A DNA stretch of 33,835 nt from positions 1 to 33,835 of IMG/VR virus record IMGVR_UViG_3300035701_008648; one strand, written 5' to 3'. Every line of letters starts with the position of its first letter. Position 1 is the first letter of the stretch. Shown one piece after another: positions 1,265-26,598 of the stretch. Below the pieces are notes generated by a model. The model was given only the letters and a program-made list of their open reading frames with translations. It did not search any database and was not told the DNA's origin. This DNA is from a virus. The position numbers and the translations under genes were made by a program.

Positions 1265-2191
1265 ATGGCAAGCGACTGCGTAGTTCCGATTGTGACACTG
1301 TCCAATATCCGCGAGCATCCGAACGCCTCCCTGCTTGGGCTGGCTGACGTTCTTGGGTACCAGATGGCCATCCCGCTGGTGGAGGACCAGAACGGAGGGA
1401 TCGTCAGGAAGTTCGTCAGGGGCAAGGTTGACGAGAAAGGTCGCAAGGTTCCTGCCGACGAGAACACGCCTGCGGCCGACACTGAAGAGGCCCGTTTCGC
1501 GTTCAGGTACAGGGACGGACAGGTCTGCGTCTATTTTCCGGCCGACACGCTGCTTCCGGCCGAGTGGGCCGACAAGTTCGGAGTCAGGCAGCTCCTGAAG
1601 GGGAAGGACAGGGATCGCGTCGGGAAGATCAAGCTGCGCGGGGAGCCGTCTTTCGGGCTTGTCGTTGACCTGCCGGACGGTGTTGACTGGAAGGTCGGGG
1701 ACAACGTTTGTGATTATTTTGGGGCCAAAAAGTACGAACCTCCGATCCGGGTTGGATGTGGCGATGCGGCTCCGTATGACCCTGACATTGATCCGTTCTT
1801 CGACAAGTTCACCGACGTTCAGAACGGCCGCGTGAACCTCGACGTGTTCGCCGATGGGGAGGAGGTCATCTTTACGGAGAAGATCCACGGTTGTTTGCAT
1901 GCCGATACGAAAATTATGCAGGCCAATGGCGAGGAAATTCCCATTTCGGCTTTAACAAGGGGAGATATTGTACTTGCTTGCCGAAGAGTTGGCGATGTCA
2001 TAGATTTCGTCCCAAGGGAAGTTGTGCAAGTTATTCACAGGGAGCTGTCGTCTTCTCAAAAATGGGTTAGACTTCATTTTGGTGATCGCTCAATTGTTTG
2101 TACCGAAGATCACTTGTTTTTGACGAGGAATGGAGGTTGGATTTCTGCTGAAAAACTTTCGGGGAAAGATGATGTTGTAGAAGGGTTTTGA
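1265..2191 (+). CDS. RNA ligase N-terminal part fused to split-intein N half
   Basis: Residues 1-209 are the N-terminal part of an RNA ligase like the DRB0094 family: an OB-like start (VTLSNIREHPNASLLGLADVLG) and a nucleotidyltransferase core reaching FTEKIHG, where Lys206 is the expected adenylated lysine. The reading then changes to an intein at Cys210. It has an N1 block (CLHADTKIMQANGEEIP), a GDIVLAC strand, and an N3 block with the TxxH signature (CTEDHLF). The intein half is 99 residues long and ends in a TGA stop. The matching intein C half and the rest of the ligase are encoded at 3074-3784. Trans-splicing should rebuild EKIHG-SNCR. Base composition becomes AT-richer exactly at the intein start. 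The start is preceded by AAAGGATAGG. Confidence 0.9.
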   Translation: MASDCVVPIVTLSNIREHPNASLLGLADVLGYQMAIPLVEDQNGGIVRKFVRGKVDEKGRKVPADENTPAADTEEARFAFRYRDGQVCVYFPADTLLPAEWADKFGVRQLLKGKDRDRVGKIKLRGEPSFGLVVDLPDGVDWKVGDNVCDYFGAKKYEPPIRVGCGDAAPYDPDIDPFFDKFTDVQNGRVNLDVFADGEEVIFTEKIHGCLHADTKIMQANGEEIPISALTRGDIVLACRRVGDVIDFVPREVVQVIHRELSSSQKWVRLHFGDRSIVCTEDHLFLTRNGGWISAEKLSGKDDVVEGF

Positions 2192-2218
2192 CTTAATCTC
2201 ATCGAATCATCAGTTAGA

Positions 2219-2239
2219 ACCGTGCACTAAGTGCACGGT
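2219..2239 (+). other. Perfect 9-bp hairpin between intein half and endonuclease gene
   Basis: ACCGTGCAC and GTGCACGGT form a perfect inverted repeat with a TAA loop. It sits 27 bases after the intein-N stop codon and just before the CTGGAG ribosome site of the endonuclease gene. No T-run follows, so it does not look like an intrinsic terminator. It could tune endonuclease translation or stabilise the mRNA. Confidence 0.7.
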
Positions 2240-2256
2240 AATAACTGGAGAAAACG

Positions 2257-3114
2257 ATGAGAAGCTCGTTAGGCAACCGTGTTTGTCATTGCGGACGATC
2301 TTGTAGGCTTGAGGAATGTACGATATGTAGGGAAAAGAAAAAAAGAGCCGTTTTGAATGGTCAAAAGGTTCAAATATCGTGCAGGATGTGTGGGGCTCCG
2401 TATTTTGTTTCCGTTTTGAAAGTCAACCACTATGCCAAACTGGGAGGGGTTGTTTGTCGCAAGTGCCAAAGCATACTTGCGTCTAAACGTTTGACTAAAT
2501 TGCGGTCGTTGCAGTCTCCGGAAGAAAGGGTTCGAATTGCTAAATACGCTCGTTCTTGTGTAAAAGCCGATCCATCGGAGACCGTAAGAAAACAATGGGA
2601 CACTATCAAGTCCAATCCGGAACTGTATGAGAAAAACAGATCCCGCCTTGAAAGACAATCTGTTGAAGGTTGGAAAAATGCCGATGAGGCTACAAGAAAC
2701 AAGAGGATACTGAGTTTTATCAACAGGAACAAAAGCAGGTCGGCTGGTAGCGATAAATTGAAGAGGTTAATGATTGAAAGAGGTTTGTATGAAGGATTTG
2801 TTTCTGAAGAAATTTTCCATGGGTTTATACCGGACGAGATAAATCACGGACTTAAGATCATTGTCGAATATTATGGGGATGTTTATCATTGCCGTCCTAG
2901 AAGGTACAAGGATCCCAGCCAATACCTGAAATTTATTGGCAGAACTGTCGGGGAACAATGGGCTAGAGACAAGAAAAGACTTGCAGTTTTTTATCGTTTC
3001 GGATATGTGGTGGTGATAGTGTGGGAGTCTGATTTTAAGCGGGACGAAGAGGGTCAACTAAGGAGAATACAAAATGAGATTGACAGGAAAAGAAGCGTTG
3101 GTGGGATCGTTTGA
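2257..3114 (+). CDS. Vsr-like (EDxHD-type) homing endonuclease inside the fractured RNA ligase gene
   Basis: This 285-residue protein probably cuts an uninterrupted RNA ligase gene so that the intein region is copied in. The N-terminus has cysteine pairs that look like zinc fingers (CHCGRSC, CTICREK, CRMCGAPY, CRKCQS). The middle is basic and helical, which suits DNA binding. The C-terminus has the Vsr-like nuclease pattern: IIVEYYGDVYHCRP, then WARDKKRLAVFYRFGY and VIVWESDF. This is the endonuclease family found in fractured genes with split inteins. It starts at ATG 2257 after GGAG. Its last 41 bases overlap the intein-C ORF. It is AT-rich compared with the ligase exteins, consistent with mobility. 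Confidence 0.85.
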   Translation: MRSSLGNRVCHCGRSCRLEECTICREKKKRAVLNGQKVQISCRMCGAPYFVSVLKVNHYAKLGGVVCRKCQSILASKRLTKLRSLQSPEERVRIAKYARSCVKADPSETVRKQWDTIKSNPELYEKNRSRLERQSVEGWKNADEATRNKRILSFINRNKSRSAGSDKLKRLMIERGLYEGFVSEEIFHGFIPDEINHGLKIIVEYYGDVYHCRPRRYKDPSQYLKFIGRTVGEQWARDKKRLAVFYRFGYVVVIVWESDFKRDEEGQLRRIQNEIDRKRSVGGIV

Positions 3115-3784
3115 TAGGTGGGATATTGAGGTGCAGGAGGAACACTCCTTTGTTGCAGAGGGGGCTGTTGTTCATAATTCTAACTGTCGCCTTGGCTGCG
3201 TCAACGGCCGTCAGGTCGCCGGCTCCATGTCGGTCAGGAGGAAACGTCCGTCGAGGAAGGATGACGGGCTTGTGGAGGCTTCCTGCGGGTTCGACAGCGA
3301 GGAGATGAAACGGAGCACCTATTGGTTTCCGTGGACGCTCCCCGGCGTCAGGAGCTTGTTGGACTCCTTCAATGTCGCCATCGACACCGACGACCCGCAG
3401 AACATGAATGCCGTCCTTTACGGAGAGGTCTATGGGGGGAGCATCCAAAGCCTCGACTACGGCGTCCCCAAGGGGAAGGGCCTCGGGTTCCGCGCGTTCG
3501 GCCTCAGGCTGAACGGCAGGTTCCTTGACTGGGACGACTTTGCGCGTATCTGTTCCAAATATGGCGTCGAAACGGTGCCGGTGCTGTGGCGCGGACCGTA
3601 CAGCCTCGCCAAGGCCAAGGAGCTGGCCGACGGGAAGTCGCAGATGGCTGGGCACATAAGGGAAGGGACGGTCGCCTATCCCGTGAGGGAGAGGGACAAC
3701 CCGAAGGTCGGACGTGCCATTTTGAAATTCGTGGGGACGGAATACGACCTCATGACGGGCAAGACGGACTTCAAGGACGTCTGA
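3074..3784 (+). CDS. Split-intein C half fused to RNA ligase C-terminal part
   Basis: The first 35 residues are the intein C half. RWDIEVQEEHSFVAEGAVVHN matches the C2/C1 blocks, ending in Asn35 with Ser36 as the +1 nucleophile. The ligase then resumes: SNCRLGC continues motif I, MNAVLYGEVYGG fits a middle ligase motif, EGTVAYPVRE looks like motif IV, and AILKFV like motif V with its lysine. An AGGAG ribosome site lies 8 bases before ATG 3074, inside the end of the endonuclease gene, so this half is translated on its own. The GC-rich composition of the phage returns at the extein. Activity depends on trans-splicing with the 1265-2191 product. Confidence 0.9.
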   Translation: MRLTGKEALVGSFDRWDIEVQEEHSFVAEGAVVHNSNCRLGCVNGRQVAGSMSVRRKRPSRKDDGLVEASCGFDSEEMKRSTYWFPWTLPGVRSLLDSFNVAIDTDDPQNMNAVLYGEVYGGSIQSLDYGVPKGKGLGFRAFGLRLNGRFLDWDDFARICSKYGVETVPVLWRGPYSLAKAKELADGKSQMAGHIREGTVAYPVRERDNPKVGRAILKFVGTEYDLMTGKTDFKDV

Positions 3785-12001: not shown

Positions 12002-12030
12002 TTGACGCCCATTGAATTTTTTGCCATACT
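12002..12030 (+). promoter_or_regulatory. Promoter of tRNA operon 1
   Basis: TTGACG (12002-12007), a 17-bp spacer and CATACT (12025-12030). The predicted start is near 12037, about 29 bases before the leader ORF. It lies just after the stop of the upstream gene. Confidence 0.75.
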
Positions 12031-12065
12031 CCTGACAATGAAACAGGAGTAAGGTGCTTTCAACA

Positions 12066-12143
12066 ATGAGAACGACAGAGCAGGACCGGATGATGTGGGA
12101 TACGACGCCGTCGGGCGCCGCGGACGGTCCCATTCTGTACTAA
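12066..12143 (+). CDS. Leader peptide of tRNA operon 1 (25 aa)
   Basis: This tiny ORF begins MRTTEQDRMMWD and ends DGPILY. It has AAGGTG 9 bases before the ATG, follows a strong promoter, and ends 15 bases before an intrinsic terminator hairpin. Codons 7-12 are GAC CGG ATG ATG TGG GAT. These are exactly the codons read by tRNAs encoded downstream: Asp(GTC), Arg(CCG), Met(CAT) and Trp(CCA). This is the signature of a ribosome-mediated attenuator: shortage of one of these charged tRNAs would stall the ribosome and could prevent termination. The sequence facts are direct; the regulatory role is inference. The other explanation is a small functional peptide. Confidence 0.75.
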   Translation: MRTTEQDRMMWDTTPSGAADGPILY

Positions 12144-12158
12144 GGGGATTTTTCCGAA

Positions 12159-12195
12159 GGGCTCGGCGGGCATCCGCCGGGCCCTTTTTGTTTTT
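12159..12195 (+). terminator. Intrinsic terminator between leader 1 and tRNA-Trp
   Basis: GGGCTCGGCGG (12159-12169) pairs with CCGCCGGGCCC (12174-12184) over 11 bp with a GCAT loop, followed by TTTTTGTTTTT. It is 6 bases before the first tRNA. Its 5' strand (CGGCG, 12164-12168) can alternatively pair with CGCCG at 12116-12120 in the leader, which would weaken termination. Confidence 0.85.
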
Positions 12196-12201
12196 AGCTA
12201 C

Positions 12202-12280
12202 AAGCGCGTGGTCTAATTGGCTGGGCCCTGGTCTCCAAAACCAGAGATAAATGCGGGTTCGAGTCCCGCCGCGCTTGCCA
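12202..12280 (+). tRNA. tRNA-Trp (anticodon CCA)
   Basis: The acceptor stem is AAGCGCG/CGCGCTT with discriminator G, and CCA is encoded. The anticodon arm is CTGGT-CTCCAAA-ACCAG, giving CCA, which reads TGG. The T arm contains GGTTCGAGTCC. First gene of operon 1. Confidence 0.9.
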
Positions 12281-12282
12281 AC

Positions 12283-12358
12283 GGCGGGATAGCCCAGTTG
12301 GGAGAGCGCTCGGCTCATAACCGAGAGGTCGCGGGTTCGACCCCCGCTCCCGCCACCA
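12283..12358 (+). tRNA. tRNA-Met, elongator type (anticodon CAT)
   Basis: The acceptor stem GGCGGGA/TCCCGCC is fully paired, with discriminator A and encoded CCA. The anticodon arm is CTCGG-CTCATAA-CCGAG. A paired 1:72 position argues against an initiator. A tRNA-Ile with a modified C34 (lysidine) cannot be excluded. It is 2 bases after tRNA-Trp. Confidence 0.9.
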
Positions 12359-12382
12359 GATTTGAGTTGTGTTCTTTGAGAT

Positions 12383-12456
12383 CGCGGGCGACAGGCCGGT
12401 GCCTTGTCGGGGCCCATAATCTCGGCGGTTGGGTTCGACTCCCAGGTCCGCAACCA
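12383..12456 (+). tRNA. Initiator-like tRNA-fMet (anticodon CAT)
   Basis: The acceptor pairs CGCGGGC with GTCCGCA, leaving a C1 x A72 mismatch, the hallmark of bacterial initiator tRNA. The anticodon arm is CGGGG-CCCATAA-TCTCG, so the three conserved G bases (29-31) are present but two pair with T. Discriminator A and encoded CCA. The D loop is short. It appears somewhat degenerate but folds fully. Confidence 0.75.
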
Positions 12457-12463
12457 TTTTTAT

Positions 12464-12537
12464 TGCGGGATGGTGCAACAGGAGCACGTATGGCTCATAA
12501 CCATAGGATGGCGGTGCAACTCCGTCTCCCGCTACCA
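12464..12537 (+). tRNA. Unusual CAT-anticodon tRNA with 1:72 mismatch
   Basis: The stem TGCGGGA/TCCCGCT leaves T1 x T72 unpaired, as in initiators. The anticodon arm TATGG-CTCATAA-CCATA lacks the three G:C pairs of initiators. The T loop is TGCAACT, lacking the normal TTC start. Discriminator A and encoded CCA. It could be a second initiator, an Ile2-type tRNA or a decaying copy. Confidence 0.7.
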
Positions 12538-12594
12538 GATTGAAGAAGGAAGGTTCAATTCAACCACAGAATAATAGACCAGGAGAATTGAACT

Positions 12595-13296
12595 ATGAAC
12601 AAGATGGACAGCACGTATGTTTTGAGGACGAGCAAAAAGATAAGGGCAATTCGCCTTCTGGGCGGAAGGTGTGTTCGATGCGGCGAAACTAATCCAGTAG
12701 TTTTGGATTTTCACCATGAGGGCGACAAGAATGGCAAAGTTTCATATTTGTCTCGATATAGGTGGAGCAGATATTGGGAAGAGGTAAAAAAATGCCAACT
12801 GTTGTGTCGTAATTGTCATCTGGATCTCCATTATCCAGAACCAAACAAGATGAAGTTGAGGCTATTAACGATCAAAGGAGTAGTCCAATGTTGTCGGTGC
12901 GGTTACAAGTCCAATGTCGCATGTTTGGATTTCCATCACAGGAACAAAAGGGAAAAACTGTTCGGTTTCGGGACAGCACACAACAATCATATGTTCTTGA
13001 AAACTATGAGCCAAATTGTAAGAGAACTTGAGAAGTGCGAAGTGCTATGCCGCAACTGTCATGCATTGTCTCATTTTGACAGTGATAGGTTTGGTAGGTT
13101 TAGTGATGAAATAGAAAAGGCCGTTTGCGACCACAAAGAGAAACATGTTGTTGGAGCACCCGTTATTTTAGAGCTATTGAATCTTGGGATGAGAAAAATA
13201 GACATAGCGAAACAATTGAAGTGTTCCAAGTCGTTGATAACATATACTGCTCAAAAGGCAGGATGGATCGGGAATGGTGTCGTTTTGAAAAGTTGA
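12595..13296 (+). CDS. Free-standing homing endonuclease with two HNH units (233 aa)
   Basis: Two HNH-like units lie in tandem. The first is CVRCGETNPVVLDFHHEG (26-43) with CQLLCRNCHLDLH (67-79). The second is CCRCGYKSNVACLDFHH with CEVLCRNCHALSH. In each, two CxxC pairs bind zinc and DFHH plus CHxLxH give the catalytic His residues. The C-terminus (GMRKIDIAKQLKCSKSLITY) is a helix-turn-helix for site recognition. It starts at ATG 12595 after AGGAG. It is AT-rich and sits between tRNA genes of the same operon, typical of a mobile endonuclease gene that inserted there. The stop is 3 bases before tRNA-Asp. Confidence 0.9.
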   Translation: MNKMDSTYVLRTSKKIRAIRLLGGRCVRCGETNPVVLDFHHEGDKNGKVSYLSRYRWSRYWEEVKKCQLLCRNCHLDLHYPEPNKMKLRLLTIKGVVQCCRCGYKSNVACLDFHHRNKREKLFGFGTAHNNHMFLKTMSQIVRELEKCEVLCRNCHALSHFDSDRFGRFSDEIEKAVCDHKEKHVVGAPVILELLNLGMRKIDIAKQLKCSKSLITYTAQKAGWIGNGVVLKS

Positions 13297-13299
13297 AAA

Positions 13300-13380
13300 G
13301 GGGATGTCGCCTAGAGGCCCATGGCGCCAGATTGTCAATCTGGTATATGATCGCGGGTTCGAATCCCGCCATCCCCGCCA
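13300..13380 (+). tRNA. tRNA-Asp (anticodon GTC)
   Basis: The acceptor stem is GGGGATG/CATCCCC, with discriminator G and encoded CCA. The anticodon arm CCAGA-TTGTCAA-TCTGG gives GTC, reading GAC and GAT. Normal T arm (GGGTTCGAATCCC). It belongs to operon 1, split from the first tRNAs by the HNH gene. The leader contains both Asp codons. Confidence 0.93.
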
Positions 13381-13431
13381 TTTTTGAAAATTAGATAGAG
13401 GAAGGGGGTTCGAAACCGTTGAACAACTCCA

Positions 13432-13863
13432 CCCCGCCGCATTCCCCCGACTTCAGTCGTGGGGTTAGGCGGGGCAGGCTGATTTTTGTTGCCAATGCGG
13501 GGATTTTGTGCAAGGATGCGTTTGTGTTCTTTGACAGGGTGTTTCGGTTGTGGCAGGAAACAAGGTTTCCCCTGCCACGTAAAACCTGAAGGATCAGGAC
13601 GGCATAAACCCAACGCCGTACAGGCGGGGCATAATCCGTCCAATGCGCGTTGCCGTTTCGGCAAGCGCTTTTCACCATGATCCGCTTTGGGAGGGGCTTC
13701 GGAAGATGACCCACGACGAAGCGGGCTTGCGGTAAGGCTGGATGCCCGGGGCATTGTGGTGCCCATTTCAAACGGCTCCGGCCGGGCTCGGAACGAGCCA
13801 CGAGAGGGGTCATGCGTCATGTCGCATGACCTCGTCAGGAATCCCCCGGATTTATCCGTGGGG
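13432..13863 (+). ncRNA. Large structured RNA, IscB-type omegaRNA (HEARO)-like
   Basis: No convincing gene fits this 430-base stretch, but it is full of stable hairpins in one direction. CCCCGCC (13432-13438) pairs with GGCGGGG (13468-13474) around an inner hairpin CCCCCGAC/GTCGTGGGG with a bulged T. Then come GTGGCAGGAAAC/GTTTCCCCTGCCAC, CCTG/CAGG, ACGGC/GCCGT, TTGCCG/CGGCAA, GGCTCG/CGAGCC and GGTCATGCG/CGCATGACC. The right end is CCCCCGGAT/ATCCGTGGGG with the same bulged T (13843-13863). The paired end hairpins and hairpin order recall the HEARO RNA that guides IscB nucleases of IS200/IS605-related elements. No IscB gene follows; a different nuclease gene does. Class assignment is from memory of the family and needs a covariance-model search. 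Confidence 0.6.
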
Positions 13864-13881
13864 AGGTTCAACTATGCTAGT

Positions 13882-14685
13882 ATGAAGACTAGCATATTTC
13901 TGTGTAGGGAATGCGGATCTGACATAAGTCTCAAACCGTCGAACAGGAGGAGCTTTTGTAATTCTGGTTGTTTTGCGAAATGGGCTAGAAAGGTTAAGCT
14001 CAATAACAAACAGGAAAAGAGATATTGTTTGAGATGCGGAGCCGTTTTTGAGGTTGCCAGATCGATTGAACAAAGATTCTGTTCTCGTTCATGTTCGGCG
14101 TCTCACAATAACACGGGAAGGCATCCATCGAGTTCCCAAATAGCAAAACTGAAAGTATTATATGCTGAAGGTAAATTGTATGGGTTGAAGTTGGGGGTTG
14201 AAAAAGCAAAAAAGATCGGAACTAAAATTGATCGGTTATGCCCAGTTTGTGGCAAAAAATACAAGATATCACCGTGGATGTTAGAACATGGCGTCAAGAA
14301 ATTTTGTTCAAAAGAATGTTGTTACAAGAGACCTAATCAGGGAGGTTATCATTCTGGTTCTGTTCGCAATTTTCAATCAGGATGGTACGAATCAACAATC
14401 GCTGGGAAAGTATGGTTGGACAGTTCGTATGAGTTTGTGATGGCTAGATATCTTGATGAGAAAGGTTATAGATGGAAGAAGAATACGAATGGGTTCCCTT
14501 ACGTTGCTATAGATGGAAGCGGTCATCTTTATGTCCCCGATTTTCACATAGCAGATGTTGATTTGTGGGTCGAAACGAAGGGCTATATGACCGAGAACGA
14601 CCAGAGAAAATTTGATGCGTTCCCATATCGTCTTGTGGTGATTACCAAGAAGACCATCTACGACAAGTCAACTTGGGGTTTTTAA
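13882..14685 (+). CDS. PD-(D/E)xK endonuclease with N-terminal zinc fingers (267 aa)
   Basis: The N-terminal half holds several cysteine clusters that look like zinc fingers: FLCRECGSDIS, FCNSGCFAKW, YCLRCGAVFE, FCSRSCSASH, LCPVCGKKYK and FCSKECCYK. The C-terminal domain reads WLDSSYEFVMARYL, then VPDFHIADVDLWVETKGY, the E...PD...ExK core of this nuclease fold. This matches free-standing phage homing endonucleases. The GTG/ATG choice is unclear: ATG 13882 overlaps a three-codon ORF (ATG CTA GTA TGA) that has the strong GGGGAGG site, so its translation may be coupled. It directly follows the structured RNA and precedes tRNA-Arg. AT-rich. It may be a homing gene that replaced IscB, or an unrelated insertion. 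Confidence 0.8.
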   Translation: MKTSIFLCRECGSDISLKPSNRRSFCNSGCFAKWARKVKLNNKQEKRYCLRCGAVFEVARSIEQRFCSRSCSASHNNTGRHPSSSQIAKLKVLYAEGKLYGLKLGVEKAKKIGTKIDRLCPVCGKKYKISPWMLEHGVKKFCSKECCYKRPNQGGYHSGSVRNFQSGWYESTIAGKVWLDSSYEFVMARYLDEKGYRWKKNTNGFPYVAIDGSGHLYVPDFHIADVDLWVETKGYMTENDQRKFDAFPYRLVVITKKTIYDKSTWGF

Positions 14686-14695
14686 GTAGTTCAAC

Positions 14696-14772
14696 GCCCC
14701 CGTGGTCCAATGGAAGGGCACCGGCCTCCGAAGCCGGATTTCATGCCAGTTCGAGTCTGGCCGGGGGCGCCA
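14696..14772 (+). tRNA. tRNA-Arg (anticodon CCG)
   Basis: The acceptor stem is GCCCCCG/CGGGGGC, with discriminator G and encoded CCA. The anticodon arm CCGGC-CTCCGAA-GCCGG gives CCG, which reads CGG. The operon 1 leader contains one CGG codon, directly before its Met-Met-Trp run. Confidence 0.92.
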
Positions 14773-19224: not shown

Positions 19225-19253
19225 TTGACACCGACGCAGGAATATGGTTGAAT
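19225..19253 (+). promoter_or_regulatory. Promoter of tRNA operon 2
   Basis: A perfect TTGACA (19225-19230), a 17-bp spacer and TTGAAT (19248-19253), with TG one base before the -10. The predicted start is near 19260, about 24 bases before the leader ORF. Confidence 0.8.
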
Positions 19254-19283
19254 GTCTGTGAAAGATTGGGAAAGGCAAGAACG

Positions 19284-19358
19284 ATGAGCTTTGTGAACCA
19301 ACAGAACCAGCAGAATAGCCTGTCGCCCGGGGGCGACTGGGCAGGCTGGGTTCTGTAG
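19284..19358 (+). CDS. Leader peptide of tRNA operon 2 (24 aa)
   Basis: The ORF begins MSFVNQQNQQNSLSPGG and ends WAGWVL. AAAGG precedes the ATG by 8 bases. Codons 5-11 are all Asn (AAC, AAT) or Gln (CAA, CAG). The four tRNAs downstream are Gln(CTG), Asn(GTT), Asn(GTT) and Gln(TTG), which read precisely these codons. The control region after the codon run can fold into mutually exclusive hairpins and ends in an intrinsic terminator. A ribosome stalled at the Asn/Gln run would cover the first strand of the protector hairpin. This is the classic attenuator layout; its use for tRNA genes is the unusual point. Function is inferred. Confidence 0.8.
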   Translation: MSFVNQQNQQNSLSPGGDWAGWVL

Positions 19359-19383
19359 GGACCCAACTTGAGAAAGACCAGCC
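19317..19383 (+). promoter_or_regulatory. Candidate attenuator with alternative hairpins
   Basis: Strand 1 AGCCTG (19317-19322) pairs with strand 2 CAGGCT (19342-19347) around an inner TCGCCC/GGGCGA stem. Strand 2 GGCTGG (19344-19349) can instead pair with CCAGCC (19378-19383), which is the 5' side of the terminator. The first fold allows termination and the second disrupts it. Strand 1 starts directly after the Asn/Gln codons. Confidence 0.65.
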
Positions 19384-19410
19384 CCTGGGCGGAAGCCCTG
19401 GGGCTTTTTT
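19380..19410 (+). terminator. Intrinsic terminator between leader 2 and tRNA-Gln
   Basis: AGCCCCTGGGC (19380-19390) pairs with GCCCTGGGGCT (19395-19405), with a GGAA tetraloop and one T-T mismatch, followed by six T. It lies 18 bases before the first tRNA. Confidence 0.88.
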
Positions 19411-19428
19411 GTTTTAATGATCTTTGAA

Positions 19429-19503
19429 TGGGGCGTGGTGTAATTGGCAGCACGAGGCGCTCTGAACGCCTTAGAGTGGGTTCGAGTCCTGCCGCCCCAG
19501 CCA
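19429..19503 (+). tRNA. tRNA-Gln (anticodon CTG)
   Basis: The acceptor stem TGGGGCG/CGCCCCA starts with T as bacterial Gln tRNAs do. Discriminator G and encoded CCA. The anticodon arm AGGCG-CTCTGAA-CGCCT gives CTG, reading CAG. Confidence 0.92.
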
Positions 19504-19512
19504 TTTTGAGAT

Positions 19513-19611
19513 ACGGGAATTGGCCTAATTGGTAAGGCGTGGGCCTGTTAAGCCCATCAAGATAGCTCTAACCGGCTATGTGTCCAGGTTCGAGTCCTGG
19601 TTCCCGTGCCA
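19513..19611 (+). tRNA. tRNA with anticodon GTT and a long variable arm (Asn?)
   Basis: The acceptor stem is ACGGGAA/TTCCCGT, with discriminator G and encoded CCA. The anticodon arm TGGGC-CTGTTAA-GCCCA gives GTT (Asn codons). Between the anticodon and T arms is a 27-base region with an ATAGC/GCTAT stem, like the class II variable arm of Ser, Leu and Tyr tRNAs. Asn tRNAs normally have short variable loops. The charged amino acid is therefore uncertain. Confidence 0.8.
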
Positions 19612-19619
19612 TTTTCGAT

Positions 19620-19694
19620 TCGGGCGTAGTTCAATGGTAGAACGCGGGATTGTTAATCCCGAAGTTGGTGGTTCGAGCCCACCCGCCCGAGCCA
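19620..19694 (+). tRNA. tRNA-Asn (anticodon GTT)
   Basis: The acceptor stem is TCGGGCG/CGCCCGA, with discriminator G and encoded CCA. The anticodon arm CGGGA-TTGTTAA-TCCCG gives GTT. Normal short variable loop. Confidence 0.92.
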
Positions 19695-19701
19695 CCTTTA
19701 T

Positions 19702-19776
19702 TGGGGACTGGGATAGCGGAAGTCCGGGAGCCTTTGAAGCTCCTATAGTCTGGTTCAACTCCAGAGTCCCCAGCCA
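19702..19776 (+). tRNA. tRNA-Gln (anticodon TTG)
   Basis: The acceptor stem is TGGGGAC/GTCCCCA, with discriminator G and encoded CCA. The anticodon arm GGAGC-CTTTGAA-GCTCC gives TTG, reading CAA. With the CTG species both Gln codons are covered. Confidence 0.9.
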
Positions 19777-25354: not shown

Positions 25355-25376
25355 CCGCGGGGCTAAAGCCCCGCGG
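25355..25376 (-). ncRNA. Right-end hairpin, probable 3' part of the TnpB omegaRNA
   Basis: CCGCGGGGC (25355-25363) and GCCCCGCGG (25368-25376) form a perfect 9-bp stem with a TAAA loop. The tnpB stop codon lies at the stem edge. TnpB guide RNAs end at such right-end hairpins, with the guide just outside the element. Here that would be the minus-strand sequence just below 25348. Only the hairpin is marked; the RNA extends into tnpB. Confidence 0.6.
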
Positions 25377-26598
25377 ATTCTTGGTTCAGCGACGGAACTT
25401 GTCCGGCTGTCCGACAGCCGGGCAGAGGCTCCGTCTCCCCAAGCGTTGATTCCCGCTCGTCCAGCGGTACCTGCCTGATCATGTTCTGCCTGTTCAGGGC
25501 GAAGTTGCGGATGTTGACGGCCGCGTTCACGTCGCGGTCATGTTCGGCTCCGCATCTCTCACAGGTCCACGACCTCATTCTCAGCGTGAGGCCGCCATGG
25601 ATGTGCCCGCACTTGGAGCACATCCTGGAGCTGGGGTCGAATCTTCCTATGAAGATCAGGTTCCCGCCCCTCCACCCGGACTTGTATTCCAGCATGGCTG
25701 CGAATTCACCCCACGCGGCGTCCATAATGGATCCCGCCAAGCTGTGGTTAGCCGCCATGCCCCGCACGTTGAGGTCCTCGATGCAGATGGTTTGGTTCTC
25801 GTCCACCAGCCTAGAGGACAGCTTGTGCAGGAAATCCCTGCGCCTGTTTGTTATGGTTTCGTACTTTCTCGCAAGACGAATCCTTGCCCTCGCCCTGTTG
25901 TTGGAACCCTTTATTTTGCGGCTCACCCTCCGGTTCAGTCTGGCGATCCTGTTCTCCACGCCCTTACCGAACCTTGGGTTGCCAACCTTCTTGCCGTTGG
26001 ACAGGACGCAGAAATGTTTGATCCCCAGATCGATTCCGACAGCCTTGCTTCTGTCAATCGGCTTCCTTTCCGGAATTGATTTCCCATCCTCCACCAAGAT
26101 GGATACGAAATATTTTCCGGAGGGGTTCTTCGATATCGTAACGGTCTTGATCTTTCCCATGAACCTCCGGCTGAACACTGTTTTAATCTTAGGAATCTTG
26201 GGGATTGAGATGCAATTCCCGTCGAAGTCAACCTTGACGTGCTGCGGGCACTGGAAGGACAGCCTTCCCCTCTTCCTCTTGAAGGTCGGGTATCCCGGAT
26301 CCCTGTCGTGTTCCCTGATTTTCCGGAAGAAGTTCGTGAAGGCGTTGTCGAGGTTGAGCAGCGACCTTTGGAGGGACTGGGAGTTGACCTCAGCGAGCCA
26401 TGGGAGATCCATCTTCATCTTCGGGATCTCGTTGGCGAGTTGGTAGACGCCCGGTGACCTCCCGGTCTGGGCGTAGCTCCTGTTTTTCATGTCCAGAGCC
26501 CAATTGTAAATGAACCTGACGCAGCCGAAGTGTTTCTCCAGCAGTTCGGCCTGTCTCGGCTTCGGATAGATCCTGTATTTGTATCCCTTTAGCATCAT
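25363..26598 (-). CDS. tnpB: TnpB RNA-guided nuclease (411 aa)
   Basis: Ancestor-like relative of Cas12. The N-terminus is the OrfB helix-turn-helix (YKYRIYPKPRQAELLEKHFG). The RuvC-like active site is complete: Asp190 in AVGIDLGIKHF, Glu274 in ICIEDLNVRG and Asp356 in HDRDVNAAVNI. A zinc finger (CSKCGHIHGG, CERCGAEH) lies between the last two. Length is normal, so it should be active in RNA-guided DNA cleavage that helps the element persist. GGAG precedes the ATG. The C-terminal tail runs into the right-end hairpin, as is usual. Confidence 0.95.
   Translation of the reverse strand: MMLKGYKYRIYPKPRQAELLEKHFGCVRFIYNWALDMKNRSYAQTGRSPGVYQLANEIPKMKMDLPWLAEVNSQSLQRSLLNLDNAFTNFFRKIREHDRDPGYPTFKRKRGRLSFQCPQHVKVDFDGNCISIPKIPKIKTVFSRRFMGKIKTVTISKNPSGKYFVSILVEDGKSIPERKPIDRSKAVGIDLGIKHFCVLSNGKKVGNPRFGKGVENRIARLNRRVSRKIKGSNNRARARIRLARKYETITNRRRDFLHKLSSRLVDENQTICIEDLNVRGMAANHSLAGSIMDAAWGEFAAMLEYKSGWRGGNLIFIGRFDPSSRMCSKCGHIHGGLTLRMRSWTCERCGAEHDRDVNAAVNIRNFALNRQNMIRQVPLDERESTLGETEPLPGCRTAGQVPSLNQESAGL

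Follow-up and report, generated by a model that had tools for sequence, protein, structure and literature searches.

Likely leader-peptide attenuators in front of phage tRNA arrays, with leader codons matching the downstream tRNA genes

Each tRNA array in the window, as we call the 33,835-base linear virus record analysed here (IMGVR_UViG_3300035701_008648, positions 1-33,835; probably a fragment of a virus rather than a whole genome), is likely to lie behind a ribosome-mediated transcription attenuator. The leader codons match the tRNA genes downstream, this match recurs, the leaders co-vary with the tRNA content of the arrays, and the RNA contains mutually exclusive pairings. The transcription start, the translation of the leader, the stalling of the ribosome, the trigger, and the antitermination inside cells are inferred, and there are no expression data. 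A sequence-only reading of the DNA had proposed a leader-peptide attenuator with codons matching the downstream tRNA genes. This core claim is supported because of the codon statistics in the window, the permutation-controlled viral examples, the co-variation in a family of marine phage leaders, and an antiterminator complementarity above that of shuffled sequences. The pairing details had to be revised, and a response to tRNA charging remains inferred.

The two loci of the window

The Asn/Gln locus (19225-19776; all features of both loci are on the + strand) starts with a promoter-like site at 19225-19253, which was read directly and consists of TTGACA, a 17-nt spacer, and TGG-TTGAAT. The perfect TTGACA promoter of the sequence-only reading holds for the -35 (19225-19230, 59 nt before the leader ATG); the -10, at a spacing of 17 nt, is a weak TTGAAT with a TGn extension. 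The site is absent from the list produced by a simple consensus promoter scan. An AAAGG at 19271-19275, 8 nt before the ATG, precedes the leader ORF of 24 codons (19284-19358), which is translated as MSFVNQQNQQNSLSPGGDWAGWVL. Its regulatory run AAC CAA CAG AAC CAG CAG AAT (NQQNQQN, 19296-19316) is, with seven codons, the longest run of Asn and Gln codons in any of the window's six reading frames, the next having five, and its chance in a leader of such size is about 1e-7 given the window's own codon usage. Between the leader ORF and the first tRNA there is an intrinsic terminator, AGCCCCTGGGC/GCCCTGGGGCT plus a T-run (19380-19411), in which the arm at 19380-19390, termed segment 3, pairs with the arm at 19395-19405. 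The array comprises tRNA-Gln(CTG) (19429-19503), two tRNA-Asn(GTT) (19513-19611 and 19620-19694), all three called by ARAGORN and Rfam, and tRNA-Gln(TTG) (19702-19776), which was called by ARAGORN only and is below the Rfam gathering score. The translation and the tRNA calls confirm the earlier claim of a 24-codon ORF with the run Asn-Gln-Gln-Asn-Gln-Gln-Asn in front of Gln, Asn, Asn, and Gln tRNAs. The first tRNA-Asn is 99 nt long and its variable arm is apparently long, which is unusual for Asn.

The sister locus (12002-14772) has the promoter TTGACG-17-CATACT with TG (12002-12030), as identified by the promoter scan, and a leader ORF of 25 codons (12066-12143) with the translation MRTTEQDRMMWDTTPSGAADGPILY. 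The regulatory run GAC CGG ATG ATG TGG GAT (DRMMWD, 12084-12101) exceeds in length every other run of its codon set in any of the six reading frames, with a chance of about 2.5e-5. An intrinsic terminator with a 13-bp stem and a T-run (12157-12191) is followed by tRNA-Trp and three tRNA-Met (12202-12537). Further along this strand follow tRNA-Asp(GTC) (13300-13380) and tRNA-Arg(CCG) (14696-14772), each behind an HNH/endonuclease ORF (all tRNAs by ARAGORN), and these six tRNAs probably form one array. All four tRNA species are then named in only six leader codons, including CGG, which is read by tRNA-Arg(CCG). The two ORFs between the tRNAs, an HNH endonuclease at 12595-13296 (PHROG 2255, E 2e-31) and an HNH/endonuclease at 13687-14685 (PHROG 15471, E 1e-12; start codon uncertain), look like homing elements that have been inserted into the array. 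The sequence-only reading had described two independent loci that follow the same logic with different codons; the match at the sister locus is stronger than claimed, because Asp and Arg(CCG) are named as well. Both leaders are short ORFs (24 and 25 codons) with AAAGG or AAGG 8-11 nt before the ATG, and both loci combine the features expected of an attenuator, namely a short ORF with a ribosome binding site, a cognate codon run, an intrinsic terminator, and a mutually exclusive antiterminator.

No close relatives of the window were found, neither by DNA nor by those neighbouring proteins that were tried as queries, and neither leader peptide gave a match as tblastn query. Because the window is without relatives, there is no covariation evidence for either of its leaders. 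When viral contigs were scanned for the NQQNQQN codons, tRNAs were present just downstream in none of the 120 fetched loci, leaving the window's own locus as the sole case.

Elsewhere in the window, the RNA ligase gene (1265-3784) is apparently broken in two. The ORF at 1265-2191 matches the N-terminal part of phrog_968 and a Hint (intein) domain, the ORF at 3074-3784 matches the C-terminal part of phrog_968 (RNA ligase), and an ORF for an MTES_1575-like nuclease is located between them. This arrangement could represent a split intein whose homing nuclease is encoded on its own. In addition, the RNA ligase may be relevant to the repair of tRNAs. A transposase (phrog_506, E 3.7e-126) is encoded on the - strand at 25363-26598.

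Recurrence in viral and bacterial genomes

The recurrence was assessed in viral contigs with a G/C-rich terminator tail 60-90 bases before a tRNA T-arm (sample 1). For each upstream ORF, the score S was derived from the longest stretch of residues for which the array encodes tRNAs, and shuffling the tRNA sets among the arrays served as control. S was at least 2.5 in 9 of 79 deduplicated viral arrays, compared to a permuted mean of 0.39 (at most 2 in any of 100 shuffles). In a second sample, collected with a different pattern, 7 of 39 new arrays reached this score (permuted mean 0.36, at most 2 in any of 200), and a small third sample with GGCCCTTTTT contained a cognate leader in none of its 14 arrays. 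Pooling the three samples, a cognate leader is present in 16 of 132 deduplicated, terminator-preceded viral tRNA arrays, while about 0.75 are expected from the permutations. Cognate leaders before tRNA arrays are thus recurrent but far from universal. An intrinsic terminator is present at the scored matches.

The runs in these leaders can name many tRNAs at once. LSNLHLNLSQQLN precedes Gln, Gln, Asn, His, Ser, and Leu tRNAs, and the same contig (L176) carries LSNLHLNLSQQLN and YPIYIPY before its two arrays. NSSYSYSSNW is found in front of Trp, Asn, Ser, Ser, and Tyr tRNAs, and AKNNAKYNGAGW in front of Asn, Tyr, Lys, Trp, Gly, and Ala tRNAs. Similarly, SLYSLLSLCYS (L167) precedes Leu, Leu, Tyr, Ser, Cys, and Ser tRNAs, HQQPRPR (L486) precedes Pro, Gln, His, and Arg tRNAs, and YWSYSNCSFSN (L457) precedes Tyr, Ser, Ser, Asn, Trp, Phe, and Cys tRNAs. 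The Ser/Leu-rich leaders of L126, L155, and L167 use many different synonymous codons within a run, as if a whole codon box were being tested (in L167 e.g. TCA, AGT, TCG, and TCC for Ser, and TTA, CTC, TTG, and CTG for Leu). Searching the leaders from other contigs against cultured phages did not reveal any match, and eight tRNA regions of named phages did not contain a cognate leader.

A family of homologous leaders from marine phages shares the core xW(C/P)P, and the arrays behind it usually start with tRNA-Trp. Across 28 distinct leader/array combinations the residue encoded in the core tracks the presence of the respective tRNA (Fisher's tests: Cys p 0.003, Gly p 0.003, Ser p 0.011, Tyr p 0.038). 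These tests take account neither of shared descent nor of multiple testing, and the p values are only indicative. Segment 2, the antiterminator strand, is nearly invariant in this family.

The control with host genomes resulted in one clear match in 77 arrays, which belongs to Sporocytophaga (Cytophagaceae). Here, Pro, Gln, and His tRNAs lie behind two leader-terminator units in tandem, MKTIKLHIPHTQQMPQSIQGIVM and MITIQLHIHQPQQMPKVIKGNTM (L335, 690-1150, - strand). Two related genomes (L512 and L513) retain both tandem leaders with synonymous codon differences, so that three Cytophagaceae genomes share them, and the one with an array of five Pro tRNAs and a His tRNA has one extra Pro codon. 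The leader pattern was matched in only 3 of 195 relatives. No prophage genes were evident in the ORFs flanking the Sporocytophaga array, as judged by inspection only.

Alternative RNA pairings

The hairpin pairs named in the sequence-only reading, a protector, GGCTGG/CCAGCC as antiterminator, and the terminator, all exist in the sequence. The protector (1:2 hairpin, 19317-19347, -18.0 kcal/mol) contains AGCCTG (19317-19322) paired with CAGGCT (19342-19347) and is a real hairpin; at equilibrium, however, it is not stronger than the 11-bp antiterminator described below, and its role is uncertain. GGCTGG (19344-19349) can pair with CCAGCC (19378-19383) at -9.2 kcal/mol, but as main antiterminator this pairing is displaced by a far stronger one, in which segment 2, CGCCCGGGGGC (19324-19334), pairs with GCCCCTGGGCG (19381-19391) over 11 bp (-25.3 kcal/mol; p 0.015 against shuffles). 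At the sister locus, the antiterminator strand 12108-12119 pairs with 12159-12169 (11 bp plus one bulge, -20.6 kcal/mol), with weaker support against shuffles (p 0.095). The antiterminator begins 8 nt after the run at the Asn/Gln locus and 7 nt after it at the sister locus. In 22 leaders, the complementarity between the region following the run and the terminator 5' arm exceeds that of dinucleotide-shuffled sequences (mean z -1.77, SEM 0.28), compared to a mean z of -0.52 in viral arrays without leader and of -0.13 in host arrays.

The effect of the ribosome position depends on how the ribosome is modelled. In a first folding model, in which everything upstream of the ribosome was unavailable and the antiterminator was assessed before completion of the terminator, a ribosome on the run gave an antiterminator probability of 0.67, and a ribosome at the stop codon one of 0.16. 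This drop of 0.51 is larger than that of shuffled sequences (0.23; Wilcoxon p 5e-5). When base pairs across the ribosome were permitted, the mean probability decreased only from 0.66 to 0.43, and the window antiterminators persisted with the ribosome at the stop codon (0.78 to 0.79, and 0.62 to 0.61), because their segment 2 lies upstream of the stop-codon footprint. Thus, folding with a blocked ribosome footprint, which had been suggested as a check, yields a switch if pairing across the ribosome is excluded, whereas the window loci remain unswitched if it is allowed. The simple model of a stop-codon ribosome that masks segment 2 fits many other loci but was rejected for the window loci, where segment 2 is outside the footprint. 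There, the ribosome at the stop codon would sit between segments 2 and 3, and steric hindrance or timing must therefore do the work. In addition, the full-length free RNA prefers the terminator at equilibrium in most loci, and the switch must therefore be kinetic.

Proposed mechanism

In the proposed mechanism, the promoter would give rise to a short RNA. Its leader peptide of 24-25 codons would be translated by a ribosome, and the run in this leader consists of codons read by the tRNAs encoded downstream. If the matching charged tRNAs were scarce, the run would be read slowly and the ribosome would stall on it. The segment located 7-8 nt further would then be available for pairing with the terminator 5' arm, the terminator would not form, and the RNA polymerase would continue into the tRNA genes. 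With decoding at normal speed, the ribosome would be in or past segment 2 during synthesis of the terminator, which would form and stop transcription. The outcome would be a feedback loop by which phage tRNAs are made on demand. The trigger is likely to be the loss of tRNAs in infection, by host depletion or by tRNA-cleaving defences, and this is favoured over amino-acid starvation because extra tRNA would not cure starvation.

What is sensed can be approached through degenerate codons for which the arrays read only some of the synonyms. There, the leaders use readable codons in 60 of 81 cases, compared to 45.8 expected (z 3.35; the z value is approximate, as a few related marine leaders were counted separately). 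This excess, together with tRNA being the output, favours sensing of the decoding tRNAs over sensing of amino acids. It is therefore likely, albeit inferred, that the attenuator senses the lack of decoding tRNAs; the response to starvation has not been tested. A bolder reading, which we lean towards with considerable reservation, is that these loci represent a recurrent, undescribed class of attenuators on phage and some bacterial tRNA arrays that reads out the tRNA supply at the level of isoacceptors. Phages would sense the loss of specific tRNAs, e.g. by tRNA-cleaving defences, and induce the exact replacements, and the leader would evolve together with the array.

Alternative explanations

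One alternative accepts the attenuator but takes amino-acid starvation as its signal, like that of the trp and his operons. Amino acids are what classical attenuators respond to (PMC1183508), and a stalled ribosome cannot distinguish a missing from an uncharged tRNA. However, the output is tRNA and not enzymes, the leader codons fit the isoacceptors of the arrays above expectation (see the 60 of 81 readable codons), and several leaders mix many unrelated amino acids, so that we regard this signal as unlikely. It is similarly unlikely that there is no strict 2:3 switch and that a stalled ribosome changes read-through by uncoupling from the RNA polymerase or by altering Rho access or pausing. 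This would agree with the window loci, where a ribosome at the stop codon leaves the antiterminator strand uncovered, and with the full-length RNA preferring the terminator, but intrinsic terminators are present at the scored matches and the antiterminator complementarity exceeds both shuffles and controls.

A chance origin, by which a short ORF is rich in the right codons by accident and located before an ordinary upstream terminator, is suggested by the ubiquity of short ORFs and by the third sample without any cognate leader. It is opposed by the permutation of the tRNA sets, the replication, the co-variation in the marine family, and the run statistics in the window; for the class it is statistically refuted, and it is very unlikely overall. 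A T-box or another tRNA-binding riboswitch before the tRNA genes is all but excluded. T-box riboswitches sense tRNA charging through a terminator/antiterminator switch, which would suit the loci, but there is no Rfam match at the gathering score, nor on the leader at a relaxed E-value, and the cognate codons form a long in-frame run in a translatable ORF instead of a single specifier. For the Asn/Gln leader, no Rfam family was above threshold, and T-box and the others were rejected. The best match to the leader region 19298-19416 is the trpB motif RF04312 (26.4 bits compared to the threshold of 59, E 0.07), and this weak match might merely reflect that both are attenuator-like.

Significance and comparison with known systems

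Such a switch bears on the open question of what phages need their tRNA genes for and at which time these are used. A codon-sensing switch would reveal the tRNAs whose shortage the phage anticipates, and the loss of tRNAs in infection should become visible as read-through. The leader peptide would be a readable record of the function of the array and thus offer a new way of annotating tRNA arrays. Leader-peptide attenuation would be extended from enzyme operons to tRNA genes, including those of at least one bacterial chromosome. Neither the open-access literature searched (subscription papers and preprints were outside the search) nor Rfam yielded a description of tRNA genes under leader-peptide attenuation, and it is likely that the application of this principle, known for enzyme operons, to tRNA genes is new.

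Phage tRNAs are known to evade tRNA-targeting defences (van den Berg et al. 2023, PMC10264068). The arrays described there are of the same kind of genes, and their proposed role of replacing tRNAs lost to defences fits an on-demand switch. The text of that study does not contain attenuat-, leader, terminator, or promoter; what is new here is the proposed regulation of such arrays. T-box riboswitches resemble the phage loci in antitermination upon low tRNA charging, but the phage loci would sense by translation. Leader-peptide attenuators also control the aminoacyl-tRNA synthetase genes alaS, leuS, and thrS in Streptomyces lividans (PMC8079986). Like the phage loci they control the supply of charged tRNA and their leader codons fit the amino acid, but they regulate an enzyme for one amino acid on a bacterial chromosome, whereas the phage loci precede arrays of several kinds of tRNAs. 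The window loci do not meet the criterion of attenuators of synthetase or biosynthetic genes, the regulated genes being tRNAs. In architecture, the loci resemble the attenuators of trp, his, ilv, and pheA, which share the short leader ORF, the cognate codons, the antiterminator/terminator alternatives, and the T-run before the first gene. The phage loci differ from them in regulating tRNA genes instead of biosynthetic enzymes, in mixed codon sets that mirror the array, in their presence in phages, and in the direct loop that product and sensor would form.
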